From Taibaiella sp. (lineage in GTDB: Bacteria; Bacteroidota; Bacteroidia; Chitinophagales; Chitinophagaceae): a stretch of 58,902 nt of DNA. Both the position numbers and the translations under genes were made by a program. Below, piece after piece: positions 8,062 through 25,008 of this stretch (positions are counted from its first letter, which is position 1; each line of letters opens with the position of its first letter). The notes under the pieces are model-generated. The model was not told where the DNA came from. It was given only the letters and a program-made list of their open reading frames with translations, and searched no databases. The stretch spans positions 1 through 58,902 of the forward strand of contig JAIOYR010000012.1 of the NCBI GenBank assembly GCA_021740995.1, read 5' to 3'.

Positions 8062-9879
8062 TTAGGGCAGCAGCACCCCCTGCAGTTCTTTATCTTTAGC
8101 CTGCAGCTGCTCCTTTAGTCCATTCCATGTTTTAGTCTGCTTGGCTATCTTGGGGTAGGTTTCGAGTAGTACAAAGTGAGCATCTACTCCCAGTATACAT
8201 GAGGCCATCACCTGCTGCGAAAAATAGTGAACCGCTGCTTTCTTGCGCACCTCCAGTTGTTCGTTATCGCTCGCGGCTACAAGGTTCTGTACCTCTTTGC
8301 CAAAGTTCTTTGCATGTACATCAGCCTGCTCCAGGCTTTTTATTATTTTATCCAGCAGTGCCAGTCCTTGTTCCTTGGGGCCTGTTTTTCTTTTCATCAG
8401 GTCGGGTTGCTGCTGCCTGCAGTAGAGCAGCAGTGCCCCAAAGGAGAACACCCTTTGCAGTTTTGCAGCCATTGCTTTGCGCGCGCCTATCTCCAGCACC
8501 GCAGCCAGCTCATCTTCTTCATGTTCATTTTCTGAGAAGGCTATTACCCGACTATCTACCTTCACACTCTCTGCATGCAGTGGGCCGCGTAGCACTATAC
8601 CCTCTATGGTAGTGCATCGGCTGAGGGCTACATATACCTGCCCCGGCGCAAAAGACCGGTTGATGTCCAGTACTGCCTTCTGCAAGGTCAGCCCCTGGCT
8701 TTTATGAATGGTCACCGCCCATGCCAGCCGCAGCGGAAACTGGCTAAAACTGCCGGTCTCTTCTTCCATTATTTTACCCGCCTGCTTGTCCAGTGTATAG
8801 CGCATGTTTTTCCACACCTCCTGTGGCACCTGCACTTTATCCTTGCTATCGGCAAAAGCCACCTGTATGCCATTGGCATTTATTTCGTGCACGGTGCCTA
8901 TCTTGCCGTTGTAGAAGCGGCGTGGTGTCTGCATGTCATTTTTTATGAACATCACCTGTGCGCCCTTTTTCAGATGCAGTACCTGCTCTGCCGGCAGGTT
9001 TTTTAGATTTATCTCGCCCGTGGTAGTACCCTCAAAACTATGCAGTGTCGCATCTATAGCATCCAGCTCGCGCTTGTTCACATCATCTGCTATATAGTTG
9101 TGGGTGCACAGCATTATATAGCCTTCCTCCTTGGGCGGCAATGGCACATACCGCTCGTTGAGCACGGCAATGTCGGTCTGCGTTACCTCGCCGCTGCGCA
9201 CCCTGTTCAGTATATCTATAAACGATTGATCTTTCTGCCGGTATATCTTCTTCAGCTCTATATACACAGGCGGGTTTTGCATCAGCACCTGCGAGTCGAA
9301 GAAGTATGCGCCGGGATAATACAGCCCCAGTATGCTCCACTCTTCCTCCCTCACCACAGGTGGCAACTGAAAAGCATCGCCTATAAACACCATTTGCACA
9401 CCACCAAATGGCACATAATGATTGCTGCGCACATGCCGCAGCACCAGGTCTATGGCATCCATAACATCGGCACGCACCATGCTCACCTCGTCTATTATCA
9501 GCAGCTCCAGCCTGCGCAGCAGGTTTATCTTTGTTTCGCGCAACCTCAGGTTAGCCAGCAGCGAATGTTTGTCTTGTGTGCCATCTGCTTTTTTGCCAAA
9601 GCCACCCGCATTGCCCGGTACAAAGGGCCCGAGCGGCAGTTGCAGAAATGAGTGTATGGTTTCGCCCCCGGCATTGATAGCGGCCACACCTGTGGGTGCT
9701 ATCACCGCACATTCTTTGCCGCAATGGGTGCGTATGTATTTTAGAAAGGTAGTCTTTCCTGTACCCGCCCTTCCGGTAAGAAAAAGGTTTTCGTCGGTAT
9801 GTGTTACAAAAGCCACCGCTTTTTGAAAAACAGAATTCGAGGTGTCTATCTGTACAGTATCTTCTGTGATATCGGGCAT
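8062..9879 (-). CDS. PIF1/RecD-like superfamily 1 DNA helicase
   Basis: The ATG at 9879 gives 605 residues. Helicase motifs appear in order: Walker A TGRAGTGKTT, motif Ia APTGVAA, Walker B IDEVSMV, motif III GDAFQLPPV, and the late motif AVTIHKSQGLTL with VALSRCTT, which is typical of PIF1-type enzymes. These are 5'-3' helicases that act on G-quadruplexes and replication intermediates. About 140 residues after the helicase core are helical and charged, with no domain I recognise. It converges with sorB, with only 3 bp between the stop codons. Confidence 0.93.
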   Translation of the reverse strand: MPDITEDTVQIDTSNSVFQKAVAFVTHTDENLFLTGRAGTGKTTFLKYIRTHCGKECAVIAPTGVAAINAGGETIHSFLQLPLGPFVPGNAGGFGKKADGTQDKHSLLANLRLRETKINLLRRLELLIIDEVSMVRADVMDAIDLVLRHVRSNHYVPFGGVQMVFIGDAFQLPPVVREEEWSILGLYYPGAYFFDSQVLMQNPPVYIELKKIYRQKDQSFIDILNRVRSGEVTQTDIAVLNERYVPLPPKEEGYIMLCTHNYIADDVNKRELDAIDATLHSFEGTTTGEINLKNLPAEQVLHLKKGAQVMFIKNDMQTPRRFYNGKIGTVHEINANGIQVAFADSKDKVQVPQEVWKNMRYTLDKQAGKIMEEETGSFSQFPLRLAWAVTIHKSQGLTLQKAVLDINRSFAPGQVYVALSRCTTIEGIVLRGPLHAESVKVDSRVIAFSENEHEEDELAAVLEIGARKAMAAKLQRVFSFGALLLYCRQQQPDLMKRKTGPKEQGLALLDKIIKSLEQADVHAKNFGKEVQNLVAASDNEQLEVRKKAAVHYFSQQVMASCILGVDAHFVLLETYPKIAKQTKTWNGLKEQLQAKDKELQGVLLP

Positions 9880-9986
9880 GGGCAAATAAAGGACTAAAGT
9901 ACTGCAAAACGGTGATTTTACCCGAACTTACCAATTATTGAATCTGGTGTGTGAGGATTGAATAATCTGCTGTTACACGTAGTCTC

Positions 9987-10682: not shown

Positions 10683-12410
10683 ATGTCTTTACCCCGCACA
10701 GAAAAACAGGAGTTACTAAAGCAGATATTGCTGTGGACGGGTATCATCGCAGTGCTAACATTTTCAAGTTATGCACTAATGGATTATAATTACGCGACAG
10801 CAAAAAAACTCTATACCTGGAGCAGCATAGGCTGGGTGCTGGGTGTAGCTTTTTCGGTGGCTCTTTCAGGCATTATCCATTATCACTGGTTATTCTTACG
10901 ATATTGGAAAGCCGGCAAACGCACAAAATATGTACTGCTAATATGCTGCCTATATTGTATTGTGTTTATACTCTGCTATTCAAGAACCTACTTTGCGCAC
11001 TACCCCAAACATGTGAATATACCTATACTCCTTTCCCGTTCATGGGATGCTTCAATACAGGTGTTAATGATATTTTATCTTCCCTTTGCCATCATATATG
11101 CGTCTCTGCGGGGCATCCGGCAAAACAGGGAAAGAAAAGAAAAACTGCAGCACGAGCAACGCAGAACAGCTATCCTCCTCCTGAAAAGCAAACTGGAGCC
11201 ACACTTTTTATTCAATACATTGAATACCATCTATGCAATAGCCCAAAAAGAAAGTGCCAGCAAAACCATTACAGCAATAGACACACTATCAGCGCAGATA
11301 CGTGCTTTGCTACAAACTGCCACCACCGAAAGTAGCAACAACAAGTTGGAAATTGAATCCCCTAAAAAGAGGAATTATAAACCGTTAATCCAGTTCTTGT
11401 ATATCTGGTTAGGTATTTATGGTTTCACGATGTTCCCTAGCCTTATTGCATCCATTTCTTCAGGCAAATGGGAATATGAGCAATCGCCGATTTGGATGTA
11501 TCAACCACTGTTGTTAGCTACTGTTTCTCTGGCTATTGTAAGCCACTTTTATTTTTTATACAAGCCGTTTTTTATGATGCGGCAATATTCAAAGTATTTT
11601 CTAATGCTACCTCTACTTGTCTTCTTATTTATATCAGTAGATGTCACCTTAAGCGCATTAGTATTGAAAAGACGTTTACTGATTCAGAACGATGTTGATT
11701 TTTGGTCGATTGTAAAAGTAGCAGTCTGGCGGGTGCTTTTAGCAGAGGGCATATGCGCCTGGGTCTATGCAGTAGCCAGCCACTACAAAACGTTCAGAAT
11801 GCAAATAAAAGAGACCGAGCAGGCGGCAAAAGATAACGAACTCCTCCTCTTGCAAAGCAAGGTAGATACCACTACTCTTTTTAATGAGCTGAGTGGCCTG
11901 CAACAAACAGTAAACACAGAGCGCGCACCGGAAACTACCACAGCTGTCAGCGAACTCATTTCCTTGTTTCGGTACAGTGCAGACAAGGCCGATAAAGAAA
12001 CAGTTTCTGTCGCAGATGAGCTGCAATTCATAGAGCAATACCTGCACCTGCAGCAGCTACGCATACCCACAAGCGATACCATTAGTATCACCACAAACAT
12101 AGCTGCCGATGCAGTAGCCGGCCACATTGCGCCCATGCTGCTGCTGCCATTTATAGAAAATGCATTTAAGTATGGCATCAGTTATGAGCAACCATCATCC
12201 ATTGATATCACTATCAGCAAGCAAAATCAACTGCTGGAATGTAGCATCAGTAATACAAATCATTTCCGGCAGCAGTACACATCTACCGGCATGGGCATAG
12301 CCAATACTACCCGGCGGCTGCAACTGCAGTATGAGGGCAGATACCACCTGGAGCAAAAAAAAGAAAACGGCATTTACAGTGTATATTTAAGACTTGAACT
12401 AAGCAAATGA
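10683..12410 (+). CDS. LytS/YehU-like membrane sensor histidine kinase with internal duplication
   Basis: From the ATG at 10683 the protein has 575 residues; the longer frame needs a TTG. It contains two copies of a membrane-plus-kinase module. Module 1 (about 1-235) has four membrane segments and a phosphoacceptor helix with EPHFLFN (His at codon 11202-11204) but no ATPase domain. Module 2 (about 235-575) again has four membrane segments, but the equivalent motif reads DTTTLFN, with Thr at 11871-11873 replacing His. It is followed by a complete HATPase domain (LLPFIENAFKYG, GMGIANTTRRL). It overlaps the LytTR regulator by 4 bp. It probably phosphorylates that regulator. Confidence 0.92.
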   Translation: MSLPRTEKQELLKQILLWTGIIAVLTFSSYALMDYNYATAKKLYTWSSIGWVLGVAFSVALSGIIHYHWLFLRYWKAGKRTKYVLLICCLYCIVFILCYSRTYFAHYPKHVNIPILLSRSWDASIQVLMIFYLPFAIIYASLRGIRQNRERKEKLQHEQRRTAILLLKSKLEPHFLFNTLNTIYAIAQKESASKTITAIDTLSAQIRALLQTATTESSNNKLEIESPKKRNYKPLIQFLYIWLGIYGFTMFPSLIASISSGKWEYEQSPIWMYQPLLLATVSLAIVSHFYFLYKPFFMMRQYSKYFLMLPLLVFLFISVDVTLSALVLKRRLLIQNDVDFWSIVKVAVWRVLLAEGICAWVYAVASHYKTFRMQIKETEQAAKDNELLLLQSKVDTTTLFNELSGLQQTVNTERAPETTTAVSELISLFRYSADKADKETVSVADELQFIEQYLHLQQLRIPTSDTISITTNIAADAVAGHIAPMLLLPFIENAFKYGISYEQPSSIDITISKQNQLLECSISNTNHFRQQYTSTGMGIANTTRRLQLQYEGRYHLEQKKENGIYSVYLRLELSK

Positions 12411-15851: not shown

Positions 15852-16170
15852 GATGTCTGCGAGTCCCCGCACAAAGCAGGGAGAGAATCCGGGGACGAAC
15901 TGTAAAAATACCGAAATTTGGCTTTTTGCAAGCGTTATGCTTGCAGTGATAAGAACGAAGAGTTAGGCTAAGACCAACTGGGTGAAAGCAACAGAAGTTA
16001 TATATACATTTGGGGTAGTGATTTATTAGGTCAGGGTATCCTGATGTAGGCGAGTGCCACGCAGAAGAAGAGAGGAGAAGCTCCCGGGACGGAGAGTCAG
16101 CTTTAGGACACCAATTGTCGGCGGGTCTCCCGCAGAAAAAGCGGGAAGACCAGCCGGGGACGGAGAATCG
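15852..16170. repeat. Three diverged GC-rich hairpin repeats (REP-like)
   Basis: Copies at 15852-15899, 16042-16099 and 16116-16170 share one layout: GT-n-(T/G)GCG(A/G)GT, a CGCA-A-rich centre, then (C/T)C(C/G)GGGACG(G/A)A. In copy 3 GTCTCCCGC and GCGGGAAGAC form a hairpin around an A-rich loop. In copy 1 GTCCCCG pairs with CGGGGAC. They occupy the gap between the Crp-like gene and the island and contain no gene. Confidence 0.75.
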
Positions 16171-16316
16171 AATCTCATCCCCGTTTGGAGTCTAAACTAG
16201 GCATGTGTTTTTCACTTGCGAAAAAACTATAACATAGTAATAGGGGTCACACTCTTACCTCCGGTATAATCTTTCGCACTGCTTCCGTTGACTTTTCGGG
16301 GATAGGTAACTAAAAA

Positions 16317-16363
16317 AAAAGCGGAGAAAACCGTGCGCTCTCCGCTCTGTTTTCTCCGCTTTT
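16317..16363 (-). terminator. Original terminator of tRNA-Met, now cut off by the island
   Basis: A 15-bp stem (AAAAGCGGAGAAAAC with its complement at 16349-16363) is followed on the minus strand by nine T residues. It lies 8 bp beyond the distal 53-bp att repeat, so on an empty chromosome it would directly follow the tRNA-Met gene. Confidence 0.85.
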
Positions 16364-16370
16364 CTATGAA

Positions 16371-16423
16371 TGTGGTCCCACTCGGGTTTGAACCAAGGAC
16401 CCCCTGATTATGAGTCAGGTGCT
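16371..16423. repeat. Distal attachment site: 53-bp copy of the tRNA-Met 3' part
   Basis: These 53 bp are identical to 24732-24784 and in the same orientation. They cover the acceptor, T-arm, variable region and anticodon arm of tRNA-Met (minus strand), but the D-arm and 5' end are replaced by unrelated sequence. This is the expected footprint of tyrosine-recombinase integration in a tRNA 3' end. Confidence 0.97.
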
Positions 16424-16474
16424 AAATACCCTGAAAGATAATACCAACAAGCCTTTTGCTACATTGCTACTTTT

Positions 16475-16497
16475 ATGTTCAAGTAATGTTCAACTAA
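16475..16497 (+). repeat. Left copy of an internal end-repeat (candidate recombinase arm site)
   Basis: The 23-bp sequence begins ATGTTCAAGTAATGTTC and ends AACTAA, itself a double ATGTTCAA motif. It recurs with two mismatches at 24605-24627. The copies lie 51 and 104 bp inside the two att repeats. Confidence 0.6.
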
Positions 16498-16690
16498 TAT
16501 ATGCTCTGTACTGGTTAAAAAATGAAATTCGCTGTAAAGATAACACATCCCTAAAGATAAAGAATGCAATAGTTTGGCTTTGTGTTGCCTCTGCCGGTGC
16601 TATACTTTGTCTATAGGGATGAGATAAGATTAGTTGAAGCTGAATAATGTTACTACTTTTCCTGTTCGCAGCCGCTTATTCAAAAGCCTG

Positions 16691-17164
16691 TCAATTTAGT
16701 ACATGCTTGCGGTGTTTGCTCCCTACTTTTTCACTGCCATACTTTGCCCTGATTTCATCAAGGGTTTTCTTGCTACCAGTAGTTTTAAATTCCTCGGCTC
16801 TATAATACCAAGCTTTCTTTTTTGAAGCATAGAATAGCCCAGCATCTTTTAGTTGCTGCTTAACAGGCTTAGTATCTCCAGTTACCCACAACCATTTGTT
16901 TACTACCTCTATGAGAATGCCTGTTAAGGGCATTAGTTGCTCGATTACAGCCCTGTATTCCTCGGACAACCTTATTCCCTCGTCCGTGTCTTCCTGTGAT
17001 AGATTTTCACCTTTCAGTACATTGGCACAAGCATAGCTGTATTCAGCGTTTATTGCTTGCATCGTTTCGGTATCACCTCCGCAATCAGGATGATACTTTT
17101 TAGCCAGTATTTTATACATGGCTTTTACCTCGTCGAGTGTTCGACAGTCTTTGAAGTACGTCAT
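16691..17164 (-). CDS. J-domain protein encoded by the island
   Basis: The 157-residue protein has an N-terminal J-domain-like helix pair with the HPD signature in YKILAKKYHPDCGGD (about residues 17-31), followed by an unrelated C-terminal half containing WLWVTGDT and KKKAWYYR. J-domains stimulate the ATPase of Hsp70 (DnaK). Small J-proteins of this form are frequent in Bacteroidota phages and mobile elements. It probably recruits host DnaK for an element-specific task. It is isolated: 266 bp of non-coding DNA follow it and about 1 kb precedes it. A motif similar to the XRE operator lies about 25 bp upstream of the start. Confidence 0.88.
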   Translation of the reverse strand: MTYFKDCRTLDEVKAMYKILAKKYHPDCGGDTETMQAINAEYSYACANVLKGENLSQEDTDEGIRLSEEYRAVIEQLMPLTGILIEVVNKWLWVTGDTKPVKQQLKDAGLFYASKKKAWYYRAEEFKTTGSKKTLDEIRAKYGSEKVGSKHRKHVLN

Positions 17165-18211
17165 ACGTTATATTGATTTAGAATTAAAAGGTGTCTAACC
17201 TGTTGCCGATAGGCAAAACCGCCCCATGTGCGGATAGCCTTTGCGATGGCTGTGTGTGGGAGGAAATAAACTATTCCATTGGTGGCAGGGTGGCTAAAGA
17301 CAAGGGTAGCGAATGAACCAAATTATATTCCGTATAGCCCTGTGAGCGAGCAATATATTTTGGCGAATGAACTACTCTTGTGTGCGGTGCTAAGGTGATG
17401 GCTTCTGTAGTTTAGCCTTTGTGTGTGGCGAAGCTATTACCAGCACATGCCGTCAAATAGATTCATAGTTTATTGTGCGGTTGGCTGTGCGTGTGCCTGT
17501 GCGTAGACCGCCATGACGAACCTCAAAGCAGGACGAAAGCAGCCTAATGATAGCTATACAGCCCAATACCACTAATGTCCCTACAATCGCCTCCCAATGC
17601 CCAATAAAGCTATGCGAAGTCATGCGGTTTGAGGTAAGTGGCAATGGGGGCGGACGAAAGATAGAAGGAGATGGCGTTTCGATGGCTGCGGGCTGGCATG
17701 TTTACATGAGCGTTGGCAAGAGCCATAGAAACAGTTGCCATCGGAAGTAGTGCGCATGCAGCAGACAAATATGGCACTTTCAATGCTGCAAAGACACACT
17801 CCTTTGAACCTGCTGTTGAGGGTTGGTACTGTCGCTCAATAGAATTCCTGATGCTCGTATTTGATCGTGTTTTGATGCAATACAGAAAGTACTACTGAAA
17901 TTAAATTAGGAAACTGAACCCTGGCTGCAACCTATTAAACTGCACCTGCCTAAAAGTAACAGGTCGTCTACATGGCAACCGACCTGAAGGGTCGGGTGAC
18001 ATTAGAGGCTGTGGGCGGGTGTGTCTCACACGAATCAAGATATGGGGATAGGTAAAATTGCACCCTACCCCCAAAAAAATTAATGGCAGAAATTAAAACT
18101 GCCGTTATCTGCTCTTAATGCTATGAAATGTCAATGGACGGCATATAATATTCAAAAGGAGATTTTGCTATAAGCACCAACTTTTGATATGGAGTGATTT
18201 TATTCACACTG
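17165..18211. other. 1-kb gene-poor segment of the island with several hairpins
   Basis: No convincing gene is present. Short frames at 17453-17644 (minus, one membrane-like stretch, TTG start) and on the plus strand overlap one another and lack start signals. Visible structures are a nested stem at 17211-17240 (AGGC/GCCT around CCGC/GCGG), and two mutually exclusive stems at 17961-17994: AGGTCG with CGACCT, or CGACC with GGTCG. The segment may hold an untranslated RNA or a cis-acting site. Confidence 0.5.
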
Positions 18212-18601
18212 CTACATTTTCAATTTCCTTCTATCAGCTTTTATTTTTGCAGTTTGCCTCTTTACATATTCCAAGCCTTGCTTTTCCAATACCTCATCCG
18301 CATTCCAAAGTGCCATAATTTTCGACTTTGTACCATAAATCTGAACGCTTGAGCAAATATATAGTTCCCCATCAAAGACAATTTTTCGGGTGTTAGAATC
18401 ATACCTATGACGCTTGTATTCACATACCCTACAAATCACAAAGTCGTCAACGTTTAAAAGGTTTCTGAATTTATATGGCACATGACAAATGGAACCTTCT
18501 GAATCTTCAAATAAATTGAAATCTACAAAAGCTACCACTTGGGTAAAAAAGACTGTACCTATTCTGCCTCTATCATTATTTTTCAACATGCTGCGATCCA
18601 T
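18212..18601 (-). CDS. Island protein of unknown function, related to its upstream neighbour
   Basis: The ATG at 18601 gives 129 residues; it lies 4 bp after the stop of the preceding gene, indicating translational coupling. The first half is beta-rich (GRIGTVFFTQVVAFVDFNLF, VDDFVICRVCEYKR) and suggests a small OB-like barrel. The C-terminus is a basic helix ending KADRRKLKM. The pattern V-x-D-x-V-x6-CEY(K/R)...(I)xGTK also occurs in the upstream protein, so the two look like diverged paralogs. Function unknown; nucleic acid binding is a guess from the fold and the basic tail. Confidence 0.75.
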   Translation of the reverse strand: MDRSMLKNNDRGRIGTVFFTQVVAFVDFNLFEDSEGSICHVPYKFRNLLNVDDFVICRVCEYKRHRYDSNTRKIVFDGELYICSSVQIYGTKSKIMALWNADEVLEKQGLEYVKRQTAKIKADRRKLKM

Positions 18602-18605
18602 AAAT

Positions 18606-19019
18606 TTATTGTGGTTTACCACTGCGTAATGCAGCAAGCCGCCTATCAACTTCGGCTTGCAACTCTTGTCCAGCATTCGTGATGGAATCCATATACTCTT
18701 TCGTACCAATAAAAGCGATGTCGTTACGTGGGAACATTTCGCCTGTAGGAATAAACTGACCATTTATATCTAGCTTGTTAACTAAGGCACCACGCCCATT
18801 GTTAGCAGTGGCATCCCATGTCTTCTCAACTACTCGATATTCACAAACAAAGTACATGACATGATCGCCAACTTTAGCATTCTGTCTTTTGTCTGGCGGT
18901 ATGAAGCATTCAACAGTCAATGAAAGTTGTTCAACATATACGTTTGCTAAACCCTTTTTCGTGGGGTTGACAAAATTGGTTATTTGTCCTAAAATACCGC
19001 ACCCGCCGATTTGCTCCAT
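18606..19019 (-). CDS. Island protein of unknown function, putative OB-like fold
   Basis: The ATG at 19019 gives 137 residues; the longer frame to 19133 would run deep into the GNAT gene. It has beta-rich motifs (GGCGILGQITNFVNP, VGDHVMYFVCEYRVVEK), then a helix (NAGQELQAEVDRRLAALRSG). The CEYRV and FIGTKEYMDS elements parallel CEYKR and IYGTKSKI in the next gene. It sits 22 bp after the GNAT gene and 4 bp before its paralog. No function recognised. Confidence 0.75.
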   Translation of the reverse strand: MEQIGGCGILGQITNFVNPTKKGLANVYVEQLSLTVECFIPPDKRQNAKVGDHVMYFVCEYRVVEKTWDATANNGRGALVNKLDINGQFIPTGEMFPRNDIAFIGTKEYMDSITNAGQELQAEVDRRLAALRSGKPQ

Positions 19020-19041
19020 ACTAGGTTCTTTTATTGCATTC

Positions 19042-19611
19042 CTAAAGTAAAAAGGTCGAATTGTAAACGGTTGCCGGCATACATAAGCGTCGTACAAAAG
19101 TTGAAGTATCATCAATTGAATGCGCTTTATCAAATCCGCACTTAATTAACACTTTTTCGCTGCCAGTGTTATCGCTTTTTACAAGAGCAGAAATGAAATT
19201 GAATTTATACCCTATCAATGCTTCAATTGTCATGTTTAGAGCCATCGTCATTATACCCTGATTTCTATATTGTCCTGCTATGGCGAAAGCAAGATTATGG
19301 TTAATACCACCATTTCTAAATAGATCACCGGTGCCTACCTCAAAAACGGAAATAAACCCGATAAGCGTGGTATGTGCATCATCGTGGAAATTTGGGTCCT
19401 CATTGTATGCTATTTTTATCATCCTAAAAAACGACAATTTCCCACCGACCAAATCTGTCTGTTTTGCTAAAAAGGATTTCGCCGCATCAATCGAATTGAT
19501 TTCTAAGCCCAAAAACTCTTTTCTGATTTCCCTGTCTTTACATAAATCATAGAATGATTGTGCAGCAGTTAAATCAGGGCCGGTTAGTAATAAAAATGGT
19601 TCATTTTCCAT
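19042..19611 (-). CDS. GNAT-family N-acetyltransferase
   Basis: The 189-residue protein has the GNAT layout. A beta strand with TTLIGFISVFEVG precedes the acetyl-CoA loop FAIAGQYRNQGIMTMAL (motif A, Q/R-x-x-G-x-G/A type), followed by FISALVKSDNTGSEKVLIKCGF (motif B). It resembles RimJ/RimL-type enzymes that acetylate protein N-termini or small molecules. The substrate is unknown. The upstream gene is the frame-disrupted small gene 36 bp away; two linked small proteins follow, so it is the only recognisable enzyme of this cargo operon. Confidence 0.88.
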   Translation of the reverse strand: MENEPFLLLTGPDLTAAQSFYDLCKDREIRKEFLGLEINSIDAAKSFLAKQTDLVGGKLSFFRMIKIAYNEDPNFHDDAHTTLIGFISVFEVGTGDLFRNGGINHNLAFAIAGQYRNQGIMTMALNMTIEALIGYKFNFISALVKSDNTGSEKVLIKCGFDKAHSIDDTSTFVRRLCMPATVYNSTFLL

Positions 19612-19647
19612 ATTGCATAACTATTTTCATTCGCTACGTTTTGTTGG

Positions 19648-19886
19648 TTAGTTCTCAAACTCGTAGACTATATGCTTTACTATATCTTTCGGTATTTCTT
19701 CTGATATCGTTACAAGTACGACCGTGTTTTTTTCACGGTGTATTTTCACAACAATATCTTTTATAGTGAACTTATGATGCAGATTGTGTTTTTTTTAAAT
19801 AGCTTGTCTATTTTATTTCCAAAATTTGCATACCATTCGTTTATTAATTTCAGATTCTCAAATTTTATCTCTGATATATTAGCCAT
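19648..19886 (-). pseudogene. Small gene split by an A8 tract: -1 frameshift candidate or recent pseudogene
   Basis: From the ATG at 19886 the zero frame encodes 41 residues and stops at 19761-19763. An A8 run on the minus strand (T8 at 19789-19796) contains the slippery heptamer A-AAA-AAC. Slipping back one base there opens a continuous 79-residue product ending at 19650, with a coherent C-terminal half (FTIKDIVVKIHREKNTVVL, then EEIPKDIVKHIVYEFEN). Either programmed slippage joins the frames or a one-base deletion inactivated the gene. It heads the GNAT operon. No family recognised. Confidence 0.65.
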
Positions 19887-19913
19887 GGTTTAGTGGTTTT
19901 GACTTTTGGCAAA

Positions 19914-20744
19914 TCATTTGGCTACTACCAGTTTTTTTGTAATCGAATTAAAGCTACCCCCCTGTAGGGTATAATAATATATGCCCGGTGCGAGGTTAGA
20001 TGTGCTAATCACTATATACGGAGTGTTTGAATATGCCTTATAAGTGCTTATTACTTTCCCATTTAGGTCAACTAAAGCAATAGATGCAGCATCCGTGTTT
20101 TCGGGTAAAGTATAGTATATTTTTGCATCGCCAGAAACTGGATTAGGGATTGCTTCAATTGAAGCTGAATTATTCAGCTCATCATTCACTGGTAGCCCTA
20201 AACCTATTCCATTTCCGCAAATGTTACATGGTATTGTGCCGGGTAACGAATACACTTTAGTGGTATTTGATGAGCCGGAATAAGGAGTGATTGCAACAAA
20301 ACTATCATTTACTACTCCAACATTATAAACTGTTATGCTGAAAGCACTGTCAAAAGCAAACACAAGTGAACCGGTTTCGTCAATTACTAACCTATTCTGA
20401 ATACCTGATTTATCATAAACTGCCACTACATTAACTTTGTTGTCAATTTTAAATAGGTTTTCTGATACATATGCTACACCGCTACCACCTGTTAGAGAAT
20501 ACCCGCTAACAGTTGCAGGGAGTGTAATTGTTTTCCATAATGTCAGGTCTAAATTGTACAATTTCACTTGCGGATGCGTATATACCATGTATTTCTTACC
20601 TGATAATTTTAGGTTAACTACGGATTCTTGCAGTGCCGTTCCCAATGGTGCTGAATGTGTTTGTGTTAAGGCAATTTGCGCTCTCACAAGAACTGAGGTG
20701 TTTAGCATCGCTGCAAATAAAAATATTGCTATTAGATATTTCAT
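19914..20744 (-). CDS. Secreted protein with a T9SS type A sorting domain
   Basis: The ATG at 20744 gives 276 residues with a signal peptide (KYLIAIFLFAAMLNTSVLVRAQ). The longer frame adds an unlikely leader. The body is beta-rich, with a CNICGNG cysteine pair near residue 175. The last ~80 residues form a T9SS sorting domain: IPNPVSGDAKIYYTLPE, ALVDLNGKVI, LAPGIYYYTL, ending KKLVVAK. It is exported by the host type IX system, so the island carries surface or secreted cargo. Its promoter region is shared divergently with the XRE regulator, whose operator-like repeats lie between them. Confidence 0.88.
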   Translation of the reverse strand: MKYLIAIFLFAAMLNTSVLVRAQIALTQTHSAPLGTALQESVVNLKLSGKKYMVYTHPQVKLYNLDLTLWKTITLPATVSGYSLTGGSGVAYVSENLFKIDNKVNVVAVYDKSGIQNRLVIDETGSLVFAFDSAFSITVYNVGVVNDSFVAITPYSGSSNTTKVYSLPGTIPCNICGNGIGLGLPVNDELNNSASIEAIPNPVSGDAKIYYTLPENTDAASIALVDLNGKVISTYKAYSNTPYIVISTSNLAPGIYYYTLQGGSFNSITKKLVVAK

Positions 20745-20774
20745 TGTGTCTTGTTTATTATACAAATTAAAAAA

Positions 20775-20842
20775 TGAGGTGTCGTATATGGTAACACTAA
20801 AGGTATAAATAATTTCCAAATTGAGGTGTCTTAAAAGATAAC
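20775..20842. promoter_or_regulatory. Two operator-like repeats in the divergent XRE promoter region
   Basis: Copies at 20775-20795 and 20822-20842 share TGAGGTGTCnTAnAnGnTAAC over 21 bp and are 47 bp apart, centre to centre. Each is imperfectly palindromic (GGTnTC ... GA/GnTAACC). The second copy ends 7 bp before the XRE start codon. Repression of both divergent genes by the XRE protein is the simplest reading. Confidence 0.7.
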
Positions 20843-20849
20843 CTGAAAA

Positions 20850-21071
20850 ATGGACGAAAAGGAACTCCTGAAAATAATGGGCGCACGGATAAAAGAAATC
20901 CGGGTAGCTAAAGGAGTTACCCAGCAACAAATGGCGGTTGAGGCTTTTAATACAGACAAATCAAATATATCACGCTTAGAGGCCGGGCGAGTAAACGCCT
21001 CAATCTTCACCCTGTATAAAACTTCTCAATATTTGGGGGTGAGTCTATCTGATTTGGTCGACTTTGAGTAA
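20850..21071 (+). CDS. XRE-family helix-turn-helix regulator
   Basis: The 73-residue protein is essentially one Cro/cI-type HTH domain. Its pattern is IKEIRVAKGVTQQQMA, then TDKSNISRLEAG as the recognition helix, then LYKTSQYLGVSLSDLV. It is probably a dimeric repressor that controls element functions. It lies divergent from the T9SS protein with 105 bp between them, which contain two matching operator-like repeats. A promoter and small RNA follow downstream. Confidence 0.93.
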   Translation: MDEKELLKIMGARIKEIRVAKGVTQQQMAVEAFNTDKSNISRLEAGRVNASIFTLYKTSQYLGVSLSDLVDFE

Positions 21072-21156
21072 CCAAATTGCATAATTTGGAAAGTAATATT
21101 CCCGTTTTGAGGGTCTTTATGTTTTTAATATTATTTATTAAAAACATTAAAATAAA

Positions 21157-21188
21157 TTTGGTAGTTTCAAATAAATGACATACATTTG
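21157..21188 (+). promoter_or_regulatory. Strong Bacteroidota promoter of the island small RNA
   Basis: TTTG at 21157-21160 and TACATTTG at 21181-21188 are separated by 20 bp, an ideal match to the -33/-7 consensus. Transcription should begin near 21194. Confidence 0.85.
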
Positions 21189-21193
21189 CACTT

Positions 21194-21288
21194 TAAGTTC
21201 ATTGGATAGATTGAACAAACGAAGATATTAGCCCCCAAAATGGCTGTACCCAGTTAGATGTCTATCCACATTTGACTGGGTTTTTTTT
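21194..21288 (+). ncRNA. Small RNA with two loop-complementary hairpins
   Basis: The transcript of about 95 nt between the promoter and a terminator holds no reading frame of note. Hairpin 1 has stem GTTCA/TGAAC (21197-21201 with 21212-21216) and loop TTGGATAGAT. Hairpin 2 is the terminator stem of 12 pairs (21249-21260 with 21269-21280) with the 8-nt loop TCTATCCA. TGGATAGA (21203-21210) and TCTATCCA (21261-21268) are perfectly complementary, so the loops could kiss within one molecule or between molecules. Between them is a CCCCC-rich single strand. It could be an antisense/copy-control RNA, a regulatory sRNA, or an attenuator leader for the HNH gene 300 bp downstream. Confidence 0.75.
21249..21288 (+). 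terminator. Terminator of the small RNA
   Basis: A 12-bp stem with two G-U pairs and an 8-nt loop is followed by eight T residues. It ends the small RNA unit well before the HNH gene. Confidence 0.88.
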
Positions 21289-21289
21289 A

Positions 21290-21596
21290 TTTAATAAAGG
21301 AGAATTATTGCCGGTATTTTTTGTTGTTATGACTATGTACCAGCCTTGTTGCCAGTGAGCCCTAACTTTTTTGCTTTTTTATATGTCTATAATATAGGAA
21401 CGTGCCGGATTGCATAGATAAAAATCCCAAACACGATAATTTTATGTCTTAACACTTCTCAAATAGCATTGGACGAAAGGCGGGTTTTCGTCCATTACGC
21501 TACACTTACATTTCAGCGACACTTATGCAGCGTCTGGTCGGTTTTGGTTGGGAGCCAAGACGGAAATTGTATGTCCCAAATTAAACAAAAAATAGA
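21290..21596. other. Leader region before the HNH gene, with one hairpin
   Basis: No gene is seen. A perfect 9-bp stem TGGACGAAA / TTTCGTCCA with a GGCGGGT loop lies at 21470-21494. It lacks a T-run on the plus strand, so it is not an obvious terminator. A recognition site or RNA structure is possible. Confidence 0.5.
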
Positions 21597-22169
21597 ATGA
21601 ATGTAGAACAATGGCTACCCATATGTGGGTATGAGAATTATTATGAAATTAGCAGTAGCGGAAATATCCGGGGCAAAGACCGGGAAATAAAATTAGAGAA
21701 TGGAAAAACAAGAAAGCTAAAAGGAAAATATTTGTCAACCTTTACTAACAGGCAAGGTTACATCACTGTAACACTTTCAAAAAATGGTATCGCCAAAATG
21801 AAGTACCTCCATCGACTGGTAGGAACTGCATTTATTGAAAATCCTGACAGTTTACCGGAAATAAATCACCTTTCAGGGGTCAAAGCAGATTGTAGCGTAG
21901 GTAACCTTTGTTGGTCTACACACCGGGACAACATTATCCATGCTTATGAAAATGATCTAACGACAAATAAGGGTGGTACACACCCCTTTGCTGTAGGCGT
22001 AATAGACAATGAATTAGGGATGCAATTTGATACCGTAAAGGAATGGGCCGCTGCTCGTGGTGTCAACTATAATACCGGGCGCAATATCTTATCGGGTTGC
22101 AATACCTCGAAGGTTATCGACCTTACGAAAATTTACAAACAATTAAAAATGAAAATGAACAATGATTAA
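21597..22169 (+). CDS. NUMOD4/HNH homing-type endonuclease
   Basis: The 190-residue protein starts with a NUMOD4 domain (EQWLPICGYENYYEISSSGN, then IRGK). It continues with an HNH_3 nuclease core: HRLVGTAFIENP, PEINHLSG with the catalytic His, and GNLCWSTHRDNIIHAYEN. The C-terminal 60 residues (VKEWAAARGVNYNTGRNILSG) look like a NUMOD1-type DNA-binding tail. Such enzymes are common in phages and mobile elements. It overlaps the ATPase gene by 8 bp, so the nuclease and ATPase are produced together. Confidence 0.92.
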   Translation: MNVEQWLPICGYENYYEISSSGNIRGKDREIKLENGKTRKLKGKYLSTFTNRQGYITVTLSKNGIAKMKYLHRLVGTAFIENPDSLPEINHLSGVKADCSVGNLCWSTHRDNIIHAYENDLTTNKGGTHPFAVGVIDNELGMQFDTVKEWAAARGVNYNTGRNILSGCNTSKVIDLTKIYKQLKMKMNND

Positions 22170-23178
22170 AAAGCAGTATACAAATAATTTAAGGGAAATG
22201 ATAAGCAGGGTACAACAAGAACCAAAACTTGAAATGATATATTCCGGCATAAAGGAAAAATCTATCGGTGTTGTATTTGGCCCTAGCAAGGCTGGTAAAA
22301 CAATGTTCTGTGAAAACCTTGGTATGTCAATAGCAGCAGGTGTAAATGAATATTTGTGGAAACCTATAAAAATGGCCGGCAGAAAAGTATTATTCGTTTC
22401 TCTAGAGGAATATTACGCCAATAGGACTGAAAGGAACGAAAAGCAAGCGATGAAATTATCCGAACAGTACGGCACCGATTGGCTTGACAATTACATCGTA
22501 GTTAATGAAAACATAGACCGTTACCTCAATGATGCGAATGACTGGAATAGACTTGCAGAAATTATCATTGAGCAATCACCGGACATTGCATTTGTCGATT
22601 CACTGACGCATATGTACTCCGGCTCTATTGAGGATAGTAAAGTGGCAATCGAGTTAACAAAGAACCTTCGATATTTAGGGGATGCCACCGGTGCGACAAT
22701 AGTCGCCATTCATCATACCCATAAAATGTACGGACAACCTCTCAGCATTGATACCATAGCAGGCAGCAGGGTATTAGCGCAGGAATTGGATTTTATGATT
22801 GGGCTTAATAGAACGTCCTCGGGCAGCAAGTATATAAAGGACGTTGCTTTCAGGTACATACCAAGTAATGATGAGACAGTTTATACTTACGAAATCGATA
22901 ATGATTGTTGGCTTAACTTGACAGGAGAAACAACTGAAGCGAAACTTCTGGCAGCACCAGACGGAAGAAAGGACAATACAAATATGAACTTAATTTTAGA
23001 CTTCTTTCAACGCGAAAACGAAAGTGGGAATACTATCATTCCTACAAACGTAATAGAAGCCAAATTTGTAGATACCAAGGAGATGTCGAAACCAGCTTTG
23101 CATTCTAATTTGAGAAAGCTAATTAGCGATAATATTATTATCAAGCCATCGCACGGGGAATACAGATTGGCTGCATAG
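22162..23178 (+). CDS. RecA-fold ATPase, RepA/AAA_25-like, of the island
   Basis: The 338-residue protein has Walker A GPSKAGKT (about residues 39-46), an acidic strand VLFVSLEEY, Walker B IAFVDSLTHMYSG, and ATIVAIHHTHK as the sensor-like strand. This is the pattern of hexameric RepA replicative helicases and AAA_25 proteins of plasmids and satellites. The last ~80 residues (FFQRENES to EYRLAA) look like a winged helix. It probably unwinds or prepares element DNA after excision. It follows the HNH gene with an 8-bp overlap and is followed by a 15-bp inverted repeat array. Confidence 0.9.
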   Translation: MIKKQYTNNLREMISRVQQEPKLEMIYSGIKEKSIGVVFGPSKAGKTMFCENLGMSIAAGVNEYLWKPIKMAGRKVLFVSLEEYYANRTERNEKQAMKLSEQYGTDWLDNYIVVNENIDRYLNDANDWNRLAEIIIEQSPDIAFVDSLTHMYSGSIEDSKVAIELTKNLRYLGDATGATIVAIHHTHKMYGQPLSIDTIAGSRVLAQELDFMIGLNRTSSGSKYIKDVAFRYIPSNDETVYTYEIDNDCWLNLTGETTEAKLLAAPDGRKDNTNMNLILDFFQRENESGNTIIPTNVIEAKFVDTKEMSKPALHSNLRKLISDNIIIKPSHGEYRLAA

Positions 23179-23191
23179 TATCTATATTGAG

Positions 23192-23251
23192 TTAACTACC
23201 TTAACTAGCTTTACTTCTAGGCAATATAGTAAACATAGTTAAGCCAGTTAA
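23192..23251. repeat. Inverted repeat built from four TTAACT/AGTTAA units
   Basis: The left arm TTAACTACCTTAACT (23192-23206) and right arm AGTTAAGCCAGTTAA (23237-23251) are inverted with two mismatches and a 30-nt centre. Each arm holds two hexamers at 9-bp spacing. The array lies between the converging ATPase and integrase genes, a plausible place for an origin or a protein-binding site. Confidence 0.7.
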
Positions 23252-23260
23252 GGTATAAAA

Positions 23261-23291
23261 GAAAGGGGTAGCATGAGCCGCCCCTTTCTTC
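23261..23291. terminator. Terminator between the ATPase and integrase genes
   Basis: GAAAGGGG (23261-23268) and CCCCTTTC (23281-23288) form an 8-bp stem with a 12-nt loop between convergent genes, preceded by AAAA and followed by TTCTT. It could serve both directions. Confidence 0.6.
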
Positions 23292-24551
23292 TTATTTACC
23301 AAACACCAATTCAATCACCGCCCGGTTTGCTTCATCAATCGTTTCATTGCTGTAGCTGTCCAAATAGATACCAGTTACTTTATTGCCGTACTGATGACCA
23401 AGAGCATCTGCTATGAGGCTATTTTCGATATGAAGTTCCTTTTTCGCAAGGTTTGCCCATGTGTACCTTGCCCAATATGTACTTACATTCTTAACTATAC
23501 CGCAATCTTCTGCAATTCGCTTCATGTGCTTGCTACAATTTTTGCAAACTTGTTTTATCAGGTTGTGTTCTTTCAGTGCATCCGAGGTAAGTTGGAGCAT
23601 CGGCAACACAAATTTATTGCTGCTTTTACTCGGTACAGCCTTGTAATACTGGATCAATTCCTGAACTTTTGGATGCATGCCTATGTTATATATCCTGCCT
23701 GTCTTATTTCGCCTGTAAACCACCCTGCCGTCTAATATATCACCGGATGTAAGGGTAAGCATATCAGCAAAATTCATGCCTATAAGACAAAAAGAAAGAA
23801 TGAAGTAATTGCGGTTGTGCCAGGCGGGCGTATCGGGTTTTAATTCACGTTCCACAATGACTCTTATTTCTGCCAATGTGAGTGTCCTGCTGATAGTTTC
23901 CTCTGTCTCAATGGTGAACTTTAAAAATGGATAATACCTGGCCTCAACAACTTCTGCCTTAATTGCTTTGTTGTATATCGCTCGGATGCTACGCATATAT
24001 GCAGCGATAGCGTTTACTTTGAGCCCTTTGGAATTCTTCTTCATCCCTTTCACCAGCATACCTGTGTTATATTTAACTAGCAGTTTGTACGTTATATCCT
24101 CAAACTGCAACGATTCATTGCCTGAAAAGCTAATTATACTGTTCATGGCATCTTGGTAAGCCATAGCAGTCCCCGCCTTGCCCGCCAACTTCATGTTTGC
24201 AATTAGTTCATCTGAAAATTGCCTTACGGTTGCCTTACTCTTGGGCACTACCTTTTTGGTTACACTAGAAATGATATCCTCCGGCAGTAAAACTTCTTCT
24301 TCATCTTCAGCAAGCATTACCTTTCTTTCTACTTTATTCTTAGCACTGGTAAGCCTGTAATTATTGCTTTTATAGCTGGGGTCATTCGGCAATATCAATT
24401 GACCTTTGTCGTCCCAGTGATCCTCGTGTAAATAAATATCCAATGACTTTTCTTTGTTTCCGTCATTGTCGTAAATCCGCAATTTAAGCGGGTAAGTTTT
24501 GTCGTCTCGCTTCCTTCGTTTGTCGAGGACGAACTTGTAATGTACGCTCAT
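23292..24551 (-). CDS. int: Tyrosine recombinase (integrase) of the island
   Basis: The 419-residue protein has an N-terminal arm-binding domain with ample Lys/Arg and a SAM-like core-binding domain (about 110-215). The catalytic domain (about 230-415) contains LTLAEIRVIVE, the box I region CLIGMNFADMLTLT, the beta2-3 lysine in RRNKTGRIYNI, box II STYWARYTWANLA with Arg, LGHQYGNKVT and the nucleophile region IYLDSY. The canonical box I arginine is Asn, as in other Bacteroidota integrases that vary at this position (IntDOT also lacks it). It lies 180 bp from the tRNA att site and should catalyse integration and excision. Confidence 0.95.
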   Translation of the reverse strand: MSVHYKFVLDKRRKRDDKTYPLKLRIYDNDGNKEKSLDIYLHEDHWDDKGQLILPNDPSYKSNNYRLTSAKNKVERKVMLAEDEEEVLLPEDIISSVTKKVVPKSKATVRQFSDELIANMKLAGKAGTAMAYQDAMNSIISFSGNESLQFEDITYKLLVKYNTGMLVKGMKKNSKGLKVNAIAAYMRSIRAIYNKAIKAEVVEARYYPFLKFTIETEETISRTLTLAEIRVIVERELKPDTPAWHNRNYFILSFCLIGMNFADMLTLTSGDILDGRVVYRRNKTGRIYNIGMHPKVQELIQYYKAVPSKSSNKFVLPMLQLTSDALKEHNLIKQVCKNCSKHMKRIAEDCGIVKNVSTYWARYTWANLAKKELHIENSLIADALGHQYGNKVTGIYLDSYSNETIDEANRAVIELVFGK

Positions 24552-24604
24552 CTTGATTTGAGTTGTGTACAGCTACATACATTAAAGAAAATATGGTACA
24601 AGTG

Positions 24605-24627
24605 ATGTTCAACCAATGTTCAACTAA
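24605..24627 (+). repeat. Right copy of the internal end-repeat
   Basis: This is the partner of 16475-16497, with 21 of 23 bases identical and the same orientation. It contains two ATGTTCAA motifs 14 bp apart and lies between the integrase start and the att repeat. Confidence 0.6.
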
Positions 24628-24683
24628 AATGGCTAAAATGACCTGTATCCTTGAAAATTGAGTAGCTCTAGTAAGGACATGAA

Positions 24684-24726
24684 AAAAGCCTTCAAATCAG
24701 CTCTGGTAGCTAATCTAAAGGCTTTT
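24684..24726 (-). terminator. Island-supplied terminator downstream of tRNA-Met
   Basis: On the minus strand AAAAGCCTT (24726-24718) pairs with AAGGCTTTT (24692-24684), followed by T-rich sequence, starting 8 bp past the tRNA 3' end. It replaces the native terminator now 8.4 kb away. Confidence 0.8.
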
Positions 24727-24731
24727 ATTGC

Positions 24732-24784
24732 TGTGGTCCCACTCGGGTTTGAACCAAGGACCCCCTGATTATGAGTCAGGTGCT
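24732..24784. repeat. Proximal attachment site within the intact tRNA-Met
   Basis: These 53 bp are identical to 16371-16423. The site is embedded in the functional tRNA gene, next to the integrase. Confidence 0.97.
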
Positions 24785-24807
24785 CTAACCAACTGAGCTA
24801 TAGGACC
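24734..24807 (-). tRNA. tRNA-Met (anticodon CAU, elongator type)
   Basis: The 74-nt gene folds as a cloverleaf. The acceptor is GGTCCTA with TGGGACC (one G-U) and discriminator A. The D-arm is GCTC...GAGC and the anticodon stem CTGAC/GTCAG-like with loop CTCATAA giving CAU. The T-arm contains GGTTCAAACC. CCA is not encoded. The CTCATAA loop with these arms is closer to elongator Met than to initiator; a tRNA-Ile2 with lysidine-modified CAU cannot be fully excluded by eye. Confidence 0.93.
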
Positions 24808-24853
24808 AATGACGAATGACCGTCATTTAACGGGATAAATCCCGTAAGGAGTG

Positions 24854-24861
24854 CAAATGTA
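24854..24861 (-). promoter_or_regulatory. -7 promoter element of tRNA-Met
   Basis: TACATTTG on the minus strand matches TAnnTTTG, about 47 bp upstream of the tRNA 5' end. A TTTC lies about 20 bp further upstream. The leader between can form the hairpin ACGGGAT/ATCCCGT (24830-24845). Confidence 0.7.
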
Positions 24862-25008
24862 GCGGATTTTCTGAAAAAACCGAAAATAATCCTACGATTA
24901 TAGTAACGGATATTTTTCCTTTAATTTTTCTATCATTTCCGGATACAGACCGATAGCTATGGGGAGCGCAATGGAACCAATGACGATTGAGAGTCACTAA
25001 TAGAAATC

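Follow-up and report, generated by a model that had tools for sequence, protein, structure and literature searches.

A predicted short terminated RNA with complementary hairpin loops upstream of the HNH-RepA genes of a tRNA-integrating element in Taibaiella sp.: a possible attenuator leader

The element and its short RNA

The window, a stretch of 58,902 nucleotides of Taibaiella sp. (contig JAIOYR010000012.1), carries an element of 8361 bp inside tRNA-Met, with an exact 53-bp direct repeat at both ends, spaced 8361 bp apart (Table 1). The integrase beside tRNA-Met and the direct repeat of the tRNA end fit the small tRNA-integrating type, which bears out the island proposed in the preliminary description. 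The gene order is XRE regulator, predicted short RNA, HNH endonuclease, RepA-like helicase and integrase, the latter adjoining the tRNA. The RNA lies, as had been described, between the XRE regulator and the HNH/ATPase genes. The helicase had a weak profile match to the T7 gp4 and Twinkle helicases. Pfam also assigned DnaJ-like, GNAT and secretion-tail genes, and a Por_Secre_tail gene (type IX secretion tail domain) is located at 19914-20930 within the mobile element. Defence-system models matched the element only with HTH models (XRE) and a homing-endonuclease model (HNH). At gathering score, Rfam revealed only tRNA in the window; the weak match of lowest E-value was bglG-cis-reg with 21.2 bits versus 80. 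Near both element ends, ATGTTCAA-type direct repeats (24594-24630 and 16475-16500) are possibly arm sites of the integrase. Upstream of the XRE gene are two 37-nt direct repeats (20759-20795 and 20806-20842), 73 % alike with a core AGGTGTC..TAAC, which judging from their sequence are likely candidates for XRE operator sites.

Table 1 Features of the element (positions in the window)
Feature	Position	Strand	Details
Left att repeat	16371..16423	-	53-bp copy, 3' part of tRNA-Met; exact repeat of 24732-24784; weak tRNA match in Rfam scan
XRE/HTH_3 regulator	20850..21071	+	73 aa; Pfam PF01381, E 6.8e-10
AT-rich inverted repeat	21119..21147		12 bp, perfect; ends 9 nt before -33 box of RNA promoter
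Promoter	21157..21188	+	TTTG 21157-21160, 20-nt spacer, TACATTTG 21181-21188; perfect match to Bacteroidota consensus
Short RNA	21194..21288	+	about 95 nt; predicted 5' end at about 21194
Hairpin 1	21197..21216	+	predicted fold; 5-bp stem, 10-nt loop UUGGAUAGAU
Putative kissing partner A	21203..21210	+	UGGAUAGA in hairpin 1 loop; exact complement of UCUAUCCA
Hairpin 2	21229..21246	+	predicted fold
Intrinsic terminator	21248..21288	+	14-bp hairpin 21248-21281, -19.0 kcal/mol; eight U at 21281-21288
Putative kissing partner B	21261..21268	+	terminator loop UCUAUCCA; exact complement of UGGAUAGA
Imperfect promoter-like site	21485..21514	+	TTTT, 18 nt, TACATTTC
NUMOD4-HNH endonuclease gene	21597..22169	+	PF07463, PF13392; overlaps RepA start
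RepA/DnaB-like helicase (AAA_25)	22162..23178	+	PF13481, E 7.6e-18
Tyrosine integrase	23292..24551	-	PF13102, PF17293
Right att repeat	24732..24784	-	inside tRNA-Met (gene 24733-24807)

The consensus promoter of Bacteroidota has TTTG around -33 and TAnnTTTG at -7, according to an excerpt of PMC7366714. The promoter called ideal in the preliminary description is a perfect one, and was the sole match to TTTG-N18-21-TAnnTTTG on both strands of 16000-25000; with spacers of 18-22 nt, it was one of two such matches in the whole window. It is the only perfect promoter of the element and is directed at HNH-RepA. On the opposite strand, no TTG-N18-22-TAnnTTTG promoter was present in the 704 nt searched. 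A scan for sigma-70-type promoters, uninformative for Bacteroidota, yielded 10 sites against 11 expected from shuffles. From its sequence, the inverted repeat ahead of the promoter may serve the RNA promoter as an operator, or may be a structure belonging to the XRE side. The promoter-like site at 21485-21514 is a possible separate promoter of HNH-RepA, but a weak candidate, since such sites occurred about 0.5 times per 300 nt in the same scan. A 9-bp inverted repeat (21470-21494) overlaps it and is a possible operator.

The feature had been delimited as 21157-21288; its first part (21157-21188) is the promoter, so that only about 21194-21288 belongs to the RNA itself. This RNA had a minimum free energy (MFE) of -28.7 kcal/mol and a z-score of -4.69; none of 200 shuffles was as stable. 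The proposed intrinsic terminator was confirmed by its hairpin and U-run, and the 95 nt indeed contain no reading frame of note: ATG-started frames are 5 codons long, and the longest frame begun within the RNA has 28 codons, starts with TTG at 21272 and extends beyond the terminator. Promoter, terminator, HNH (start 21597) and RepA (start 22162) follow each other on one strand, the layout of an attenuator. The 308 nt from the terminator to HNH folded no better than shuffles (z +0.61).

Complementarity and folding of the two loops

The loop of hairpin 1 and the terminator loop present the exact complementarity of at least 6 nt between two hairpin loops that characterizes kissing RNAs. The exact complementarity of the 8-nt terminator loop had been noted before and was confirmed, but the whole loop is probably not free: the pair U21261-A21268 formed with a probability of about 0.89 in the predicted fold, thus leaving a free loop of 6 nt, CUAUCC. 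Opening the loop to the full 8 nt costs about 1.3 kcal/mol.

An 8-nt loop-loop match including a terminator hairpin was absent from all 400 dinucleotide shuffles of the window (plus strand). Two of these shuffles had a match in a stem of at least 10 bp and 176 had some weak-stem match; the window itself has one further weak-stem loop pair (16854-16934). Local shuffling produced a hairpin with a nearby 8-nt complement once in 300 shuffles of 21190-21290 (101 nt) and ten times in 300 shuffles of 21190-21600. Real terminators with a loop of at least 8 nt, the flanking pair counted, were also inspected for a complementary partner loop. The terminator at 21248-21288 was the only one of seven in the window to possess it, compared to none of 39 in other loci (mostly bacterial, with two phage records and some loci overlapping) and none of 29 in IMG/VR loci. 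The spaced pair TGGATAGA-N20-50-TCTATCCA occurred a single time in the 3.9-Mb assembly. In the element the 8-mer has two copies, inverted and 50 bp apart, both in the short RNA and one in each loop. The absence of a terminator pair from the 400 window shuffles and of a partner loop at the 39 other terminators shows that the exact loop match exceeds chance.

MFE folds of the growing transcript contained a 9-bp helix between the loop sequences (21203-21211/21260-21268) for transcript ends at 21268-21276, and from an end at 21278 on the terminator took over. The nested alternative fold reaches -17.9 kcal/mol versus -28.7 kcal/mol for the finished terminator fold. This difference of 10.8 kcal/mol argues against the loop helix as a classical antiterminator. 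As a duplex of separate strands, the loop helix was calculated at about -9.6 kcal/mol for 8 bp and -6.1 kcal/mol for the free 6 bp, with programs that exclude pseudoknots. Two RNAs cofolded without kissing attained -60.0 kcal/mol versus -57.4 kcal/mol for two monomers.

Exact loop-loop complementarity had been taken as a hallmark of kissing RNAs, including those of plasmid copy control, which holds only loosely here. In the copy control of ColE1 and R1, an antisense RNA kisses its target RNA. The same is described for ColIb, in an excerpt of PMC8383071. The exact complementarity is shared with these systems, but the antisense-target arrangement is not. The RNA is on the RepA strand, unlike RNAI, CopA or Inc, and the 704 nt searched hold no opposite-strand promoter. 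With both loops in one sense-strand RNA, the complementarity suggests that they pair either within one molecule or between two copies of the RNA.

Homologues and related helicase loci

A homologue of the RNA was not found in the family genomes, phages, plasmids, IMG/VR stretches and related helicase loci searched. A DNA search in 147 family genomes gave only partial matches among the matches listed, and most of the best ones covered the promoter half (query 1-53). Comparison by blastn to phages and plasmids revealed no place covering 80 % of the query. A single-sequence covariance model (R1), for which the window sequence was entered twice, had six other matches at E <= 0.1 in 394 family genomes. 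All six were read individually and judged unrelated to the RNA. In nine and then seven sources, R1 matched the window only, apart from matches with E 0.17 (the opposite strand of the window) and E 4.3. One R1 match (L159 1511-1578, genome G366; E 0.0097 for its own genome, 394 genomes searched) contained GGAAAGAT, followed 60 nt later by ATCTTTCC, which lies in a terminator-like hairpin; the two are mutually complementary and both differ from the window. This loop pair is probably due to chance, because the model itself selects for similar loops and the first segment is where a coding frame ends (...GSLERLKEQQY stop).

In IMG/VR, a gapped pattern of the loop pair matched at least 120 stretches, a number that indicates chance level. 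By a loose rule, 5 of the first 120 listed had a stem of at least 5 bp around both 8-mers; on reading, none resembled the arrangement of promoter, RNA and terminator. The 18-mer of hairpin 1 matched once, with no complementary loop within the 201 nt read, and the 21-mer of the terminator had no match in IMG/VR. Protein searches of IMG/VR gave no relatives of the helicase or the HNH protein and six distant relatives of the XRE regulator. Among 5.8 billion proteins, the HNH protein had 11 other relatives at E <= 1e-20, the nearest 62 % identical.

Helicase relatives were present in 5 of 393 other genomes of the family (E <= 1e-20), 4 of 395 other genomes of the order (one, G312, already counted) and 5 of 394 other genomes of the class, and at three loci of named genomes. 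Fifteen helicase loci, the window included, were examined; L031, which starts inside the gene, and L032, with a match of 42 residues, were left out. The sample includes near-duplicates (L027 and L183) and several loci arranged in another way (integrase, small HTH gene, helicase). In a post hoc comparison, made once the pattern had been seen, a perfect promoter was located within 450 nt upstream in three of the fifteen loci, the window, L175 and L176, while the total of matches in ten of these sequences predicted about 0.02 per locus. The other twelve lacked it, including L030 and L033. These two are the nearest relatives that the genomes yielded, and they have the HNH gene overlapping the helicase as in the window; the overlap holds likewise for L025. 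L030 is an 8.1 kb element of a Chitinophagaceae MAG in tRNA-Val with a 49-bp repeat and, as in the window, the integrase adjoining the tRNA. Neither L030 nor L033/L025 has a perfect promoter or a strongly folded leader before HNH (z -0.60 for L030, -1.77 for L025/L033). Loop pairs seen by eye in L030 and L025 failed the strict test, so a shared loop design was rejected.

L175 (genome G472), located at tRNA-Gly, is an element of 4.8 kb with a 49-bp repeat and the integrase beside the tRNA. It comprises an XRE gene, a perfect promoter, a folded leader, the RepA helicase, a GvpU-like gene, the integrase and an ORF of 170 aa; the integrase is 36 % and the XRE protein 32 % identical to those of the window. 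Its leader (9771-9931, z -5.74) offers two long hairpins beside the RepA start that exclude one another: a stretch ahead of the start codon has two possible partners, an upstream arm and the sequence immediately preceding the RepA ATG. In these modelled folds, the leader looks like a riboregulator or switch. At E <= 1 it had no Rfam match except a weak miRNA. In L176 (genome G464), a perfect promoter precedes a leader (z -4.67) that ends in a hairpin with a U-run, about 20 nt ahead of the RepA start. By the loop-loop test, neither L175 nor L176 had kissing loops, and no common sequence was detectable in the leaders of the window, L175 and L176. Two further observations were made in L175: a GvpU-like gene (11101-11541; NCBIfam NF041667, 100.6 bits, cut-off 70) between helicase and integrase, and a palindrome TAGGTCATATATGACCTA (9357-9374) upstream of its own XRE gene.

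Possible roles of the RNA

We tentatively favour the RNA as a prematurely terminated 5' leader, an attenuator, of the HNH-RepA replication operon, whose predicted loops would kiss in cis or in trans. Attenuation is the first choice because the promoter is directed at the operon, a terminator follows it and folded leaders recur ahead of the helicase. The strong promoter would fire and the intrinsic terminator would stop most transcripts at a length of about 95 nt, while those reading through would encode HNH and the RepA-type helicase. During transcription, the hairpin 1 loop may pair first with the future terminator-loop sequence. The terminator hairpin would then form, and both loops could remain in kissing contact and thereby set the reliability of termination. 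The loops could also pair between molecules, which is conceivable as the short RNA could accumulate, and tie read-through to the copy number of the element. We infer transcription, termination efficiency, read-through, the kissing contact, any effect on HNH-RepA and any action in trans.

An attenuator or a control of replication had already been suggested, and it gains some support from the L175 and L176 leaders and from the element's only perfect promoter, which faces HNH-RepA. In both loci, a perfect promoter and a strongly folded leader stand directly before the helicase. The loop match beyond chance, the succession of loop helix and terminator in the growing-transcript folds and the precedents on mobile elements, IsrK and the SGI1 RNA as far as excerpts describe them, are consistent with an attenuator leader. 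Against it stand the 308 unremarkable nt between terminator and HNH, a possible weak separate promoter of HNH-RepA, the twelve helicase loci without a perfect promoter, even the HNH-sharing L030 and L033, and the leaders of L030 and L025/L033, which are not strongly folded and failed the strict loop test. No sequence common to the three leaders was detectable, L175 and L176 had no loop-loop match, the loop helix is probably no classical antiterminator, and the locus comparison is post hoc with near-duplicates (L027/L183). A quite improbable extension is a copy-number sensor free of antisense RNA. In it, the terminator loop of one molecule would kiss hairpin 1 of a second leader still being transcribed, and vice versa; a higher copy number of the element would then raise the amount of short RNA and, with it, termination ahead of the RepA helicase.

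Promoter, terminator and distance to HNH are explained equally simply by a free-standing, trans-acting sRNA that is compacted or dimerised by the loop contact, with HNH-RepA promoted separately. We consider this close rival somewhat less likely than the attenuator. The RNA combines the TTTG/TAnnTTTG promoter and the 3' intrinsic terminator by which intergenic sRNAs of Bacteroides are recognised with high confidence, according to an excerpt of PMC7366714. The spacing of 308 nt and the imperfect promoter at 21485-21514 would also suit it, and RteR, an sRNA of 90 nt, is a precedent from another Bacteroidota element. However, none of ten gene starts of the element was a convincing target in 40 tests. 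Segment energies were mostly ordinary. The lowest counts of shuffles that did as well were 2 of 200, for loop 1 at the start of the DnaJ-like gene, and 7 of 200, for the linker at RepA. Furthermore, the folded RNA runs directly into RepA in L175 and L176. The RNA may instead be an ordinary short RNA or leader with accidental loop complementarity: the loops are short, weak matches were frequent in shuffles, conservation was shown by no relative, and the feature was picked from 58.9 kb as striking. The rarity of the match in window and local shuffles (0 of 400 with a terminator pair; 1 of 300) and at real terminators elsewhere (0 of 39 and 0 of 29) renders an accident unlikely. It is very improbable that the inverted 8-mers are DNA sites, operator half-sites of the XRE regulator or another protein, instead of RNA loops. 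The XRE gene adjoins and the 8-mers are inverted repeats, but the repeats before XRE are more operator-like and lack the 8-mer, and both copies sit in RNA loops.

If an attenuator leader is present, a terminated RNA made from this promoter would act as a simple brake on the helicase, and a loop pair inside the terminator would couple RNA-RNA contact directly to termination. Among the papers listed, we found by title and abstract no description of this element family or of a restraint of the replication helicase in small tRNA-integrating Bacteroidota elements. The combination of XRE gene, perfect promoter, folded RNA, RepA-type helicase and integrase beside a tRNA gene would offer a handle for finding such elements.

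Premature leader termination with short complementary segments is a property of c4-type immunity RNAs. Likewise, the CI RNA of P4 belongs to an integrating element whose replication genes are restrained by premature termination in an untranslated leader through short-segment pairing (PMC4825925, in excerpt). CI is processed from the primary transcript and pairs with seqA and seqC, whereas the element RNA has one intrinsic terminator and two loops of one RNA, and it had no Rfam match. In the repZ leader of ColIb-P9, a loop takes part in a pseudoknot. Pairing within this replication-gene leader switches expression, as an excerpt of PMC8383071 describes. The repZ switch is translational and involves an antisense RNA; in contrast, the partner here is the terminator loop and no antisense promoter was found in the 704 nt searched. 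IsrK of prophage Gifsy-1 exists as a short, intrinsically terminated RNA and as a longer mRNA made by read-through, on which the short RNA acts (PMC4825925, in excerpt). It is similar as a mobile-element RNA with a terminated short form, but differs in genes, host and sequence; kissing loops are not mentioned in that excerpt, and read-through is a prediction here. RteR of CTnDOT is a 90-nt RNA of a Bacteroidota integrative element (PMC7366714, in excerpt); it acts on the tra operon and is likened to the element RNA by description, not by sequence. The sgm-sRNA of SGI1 has a terminator-like repeat or stem-loop 66 bp after the start site, which may limit the full-length transcript; by the same excerpt (PMC9299015), its active part differs in being a processed 3' piece needed for mobilization.
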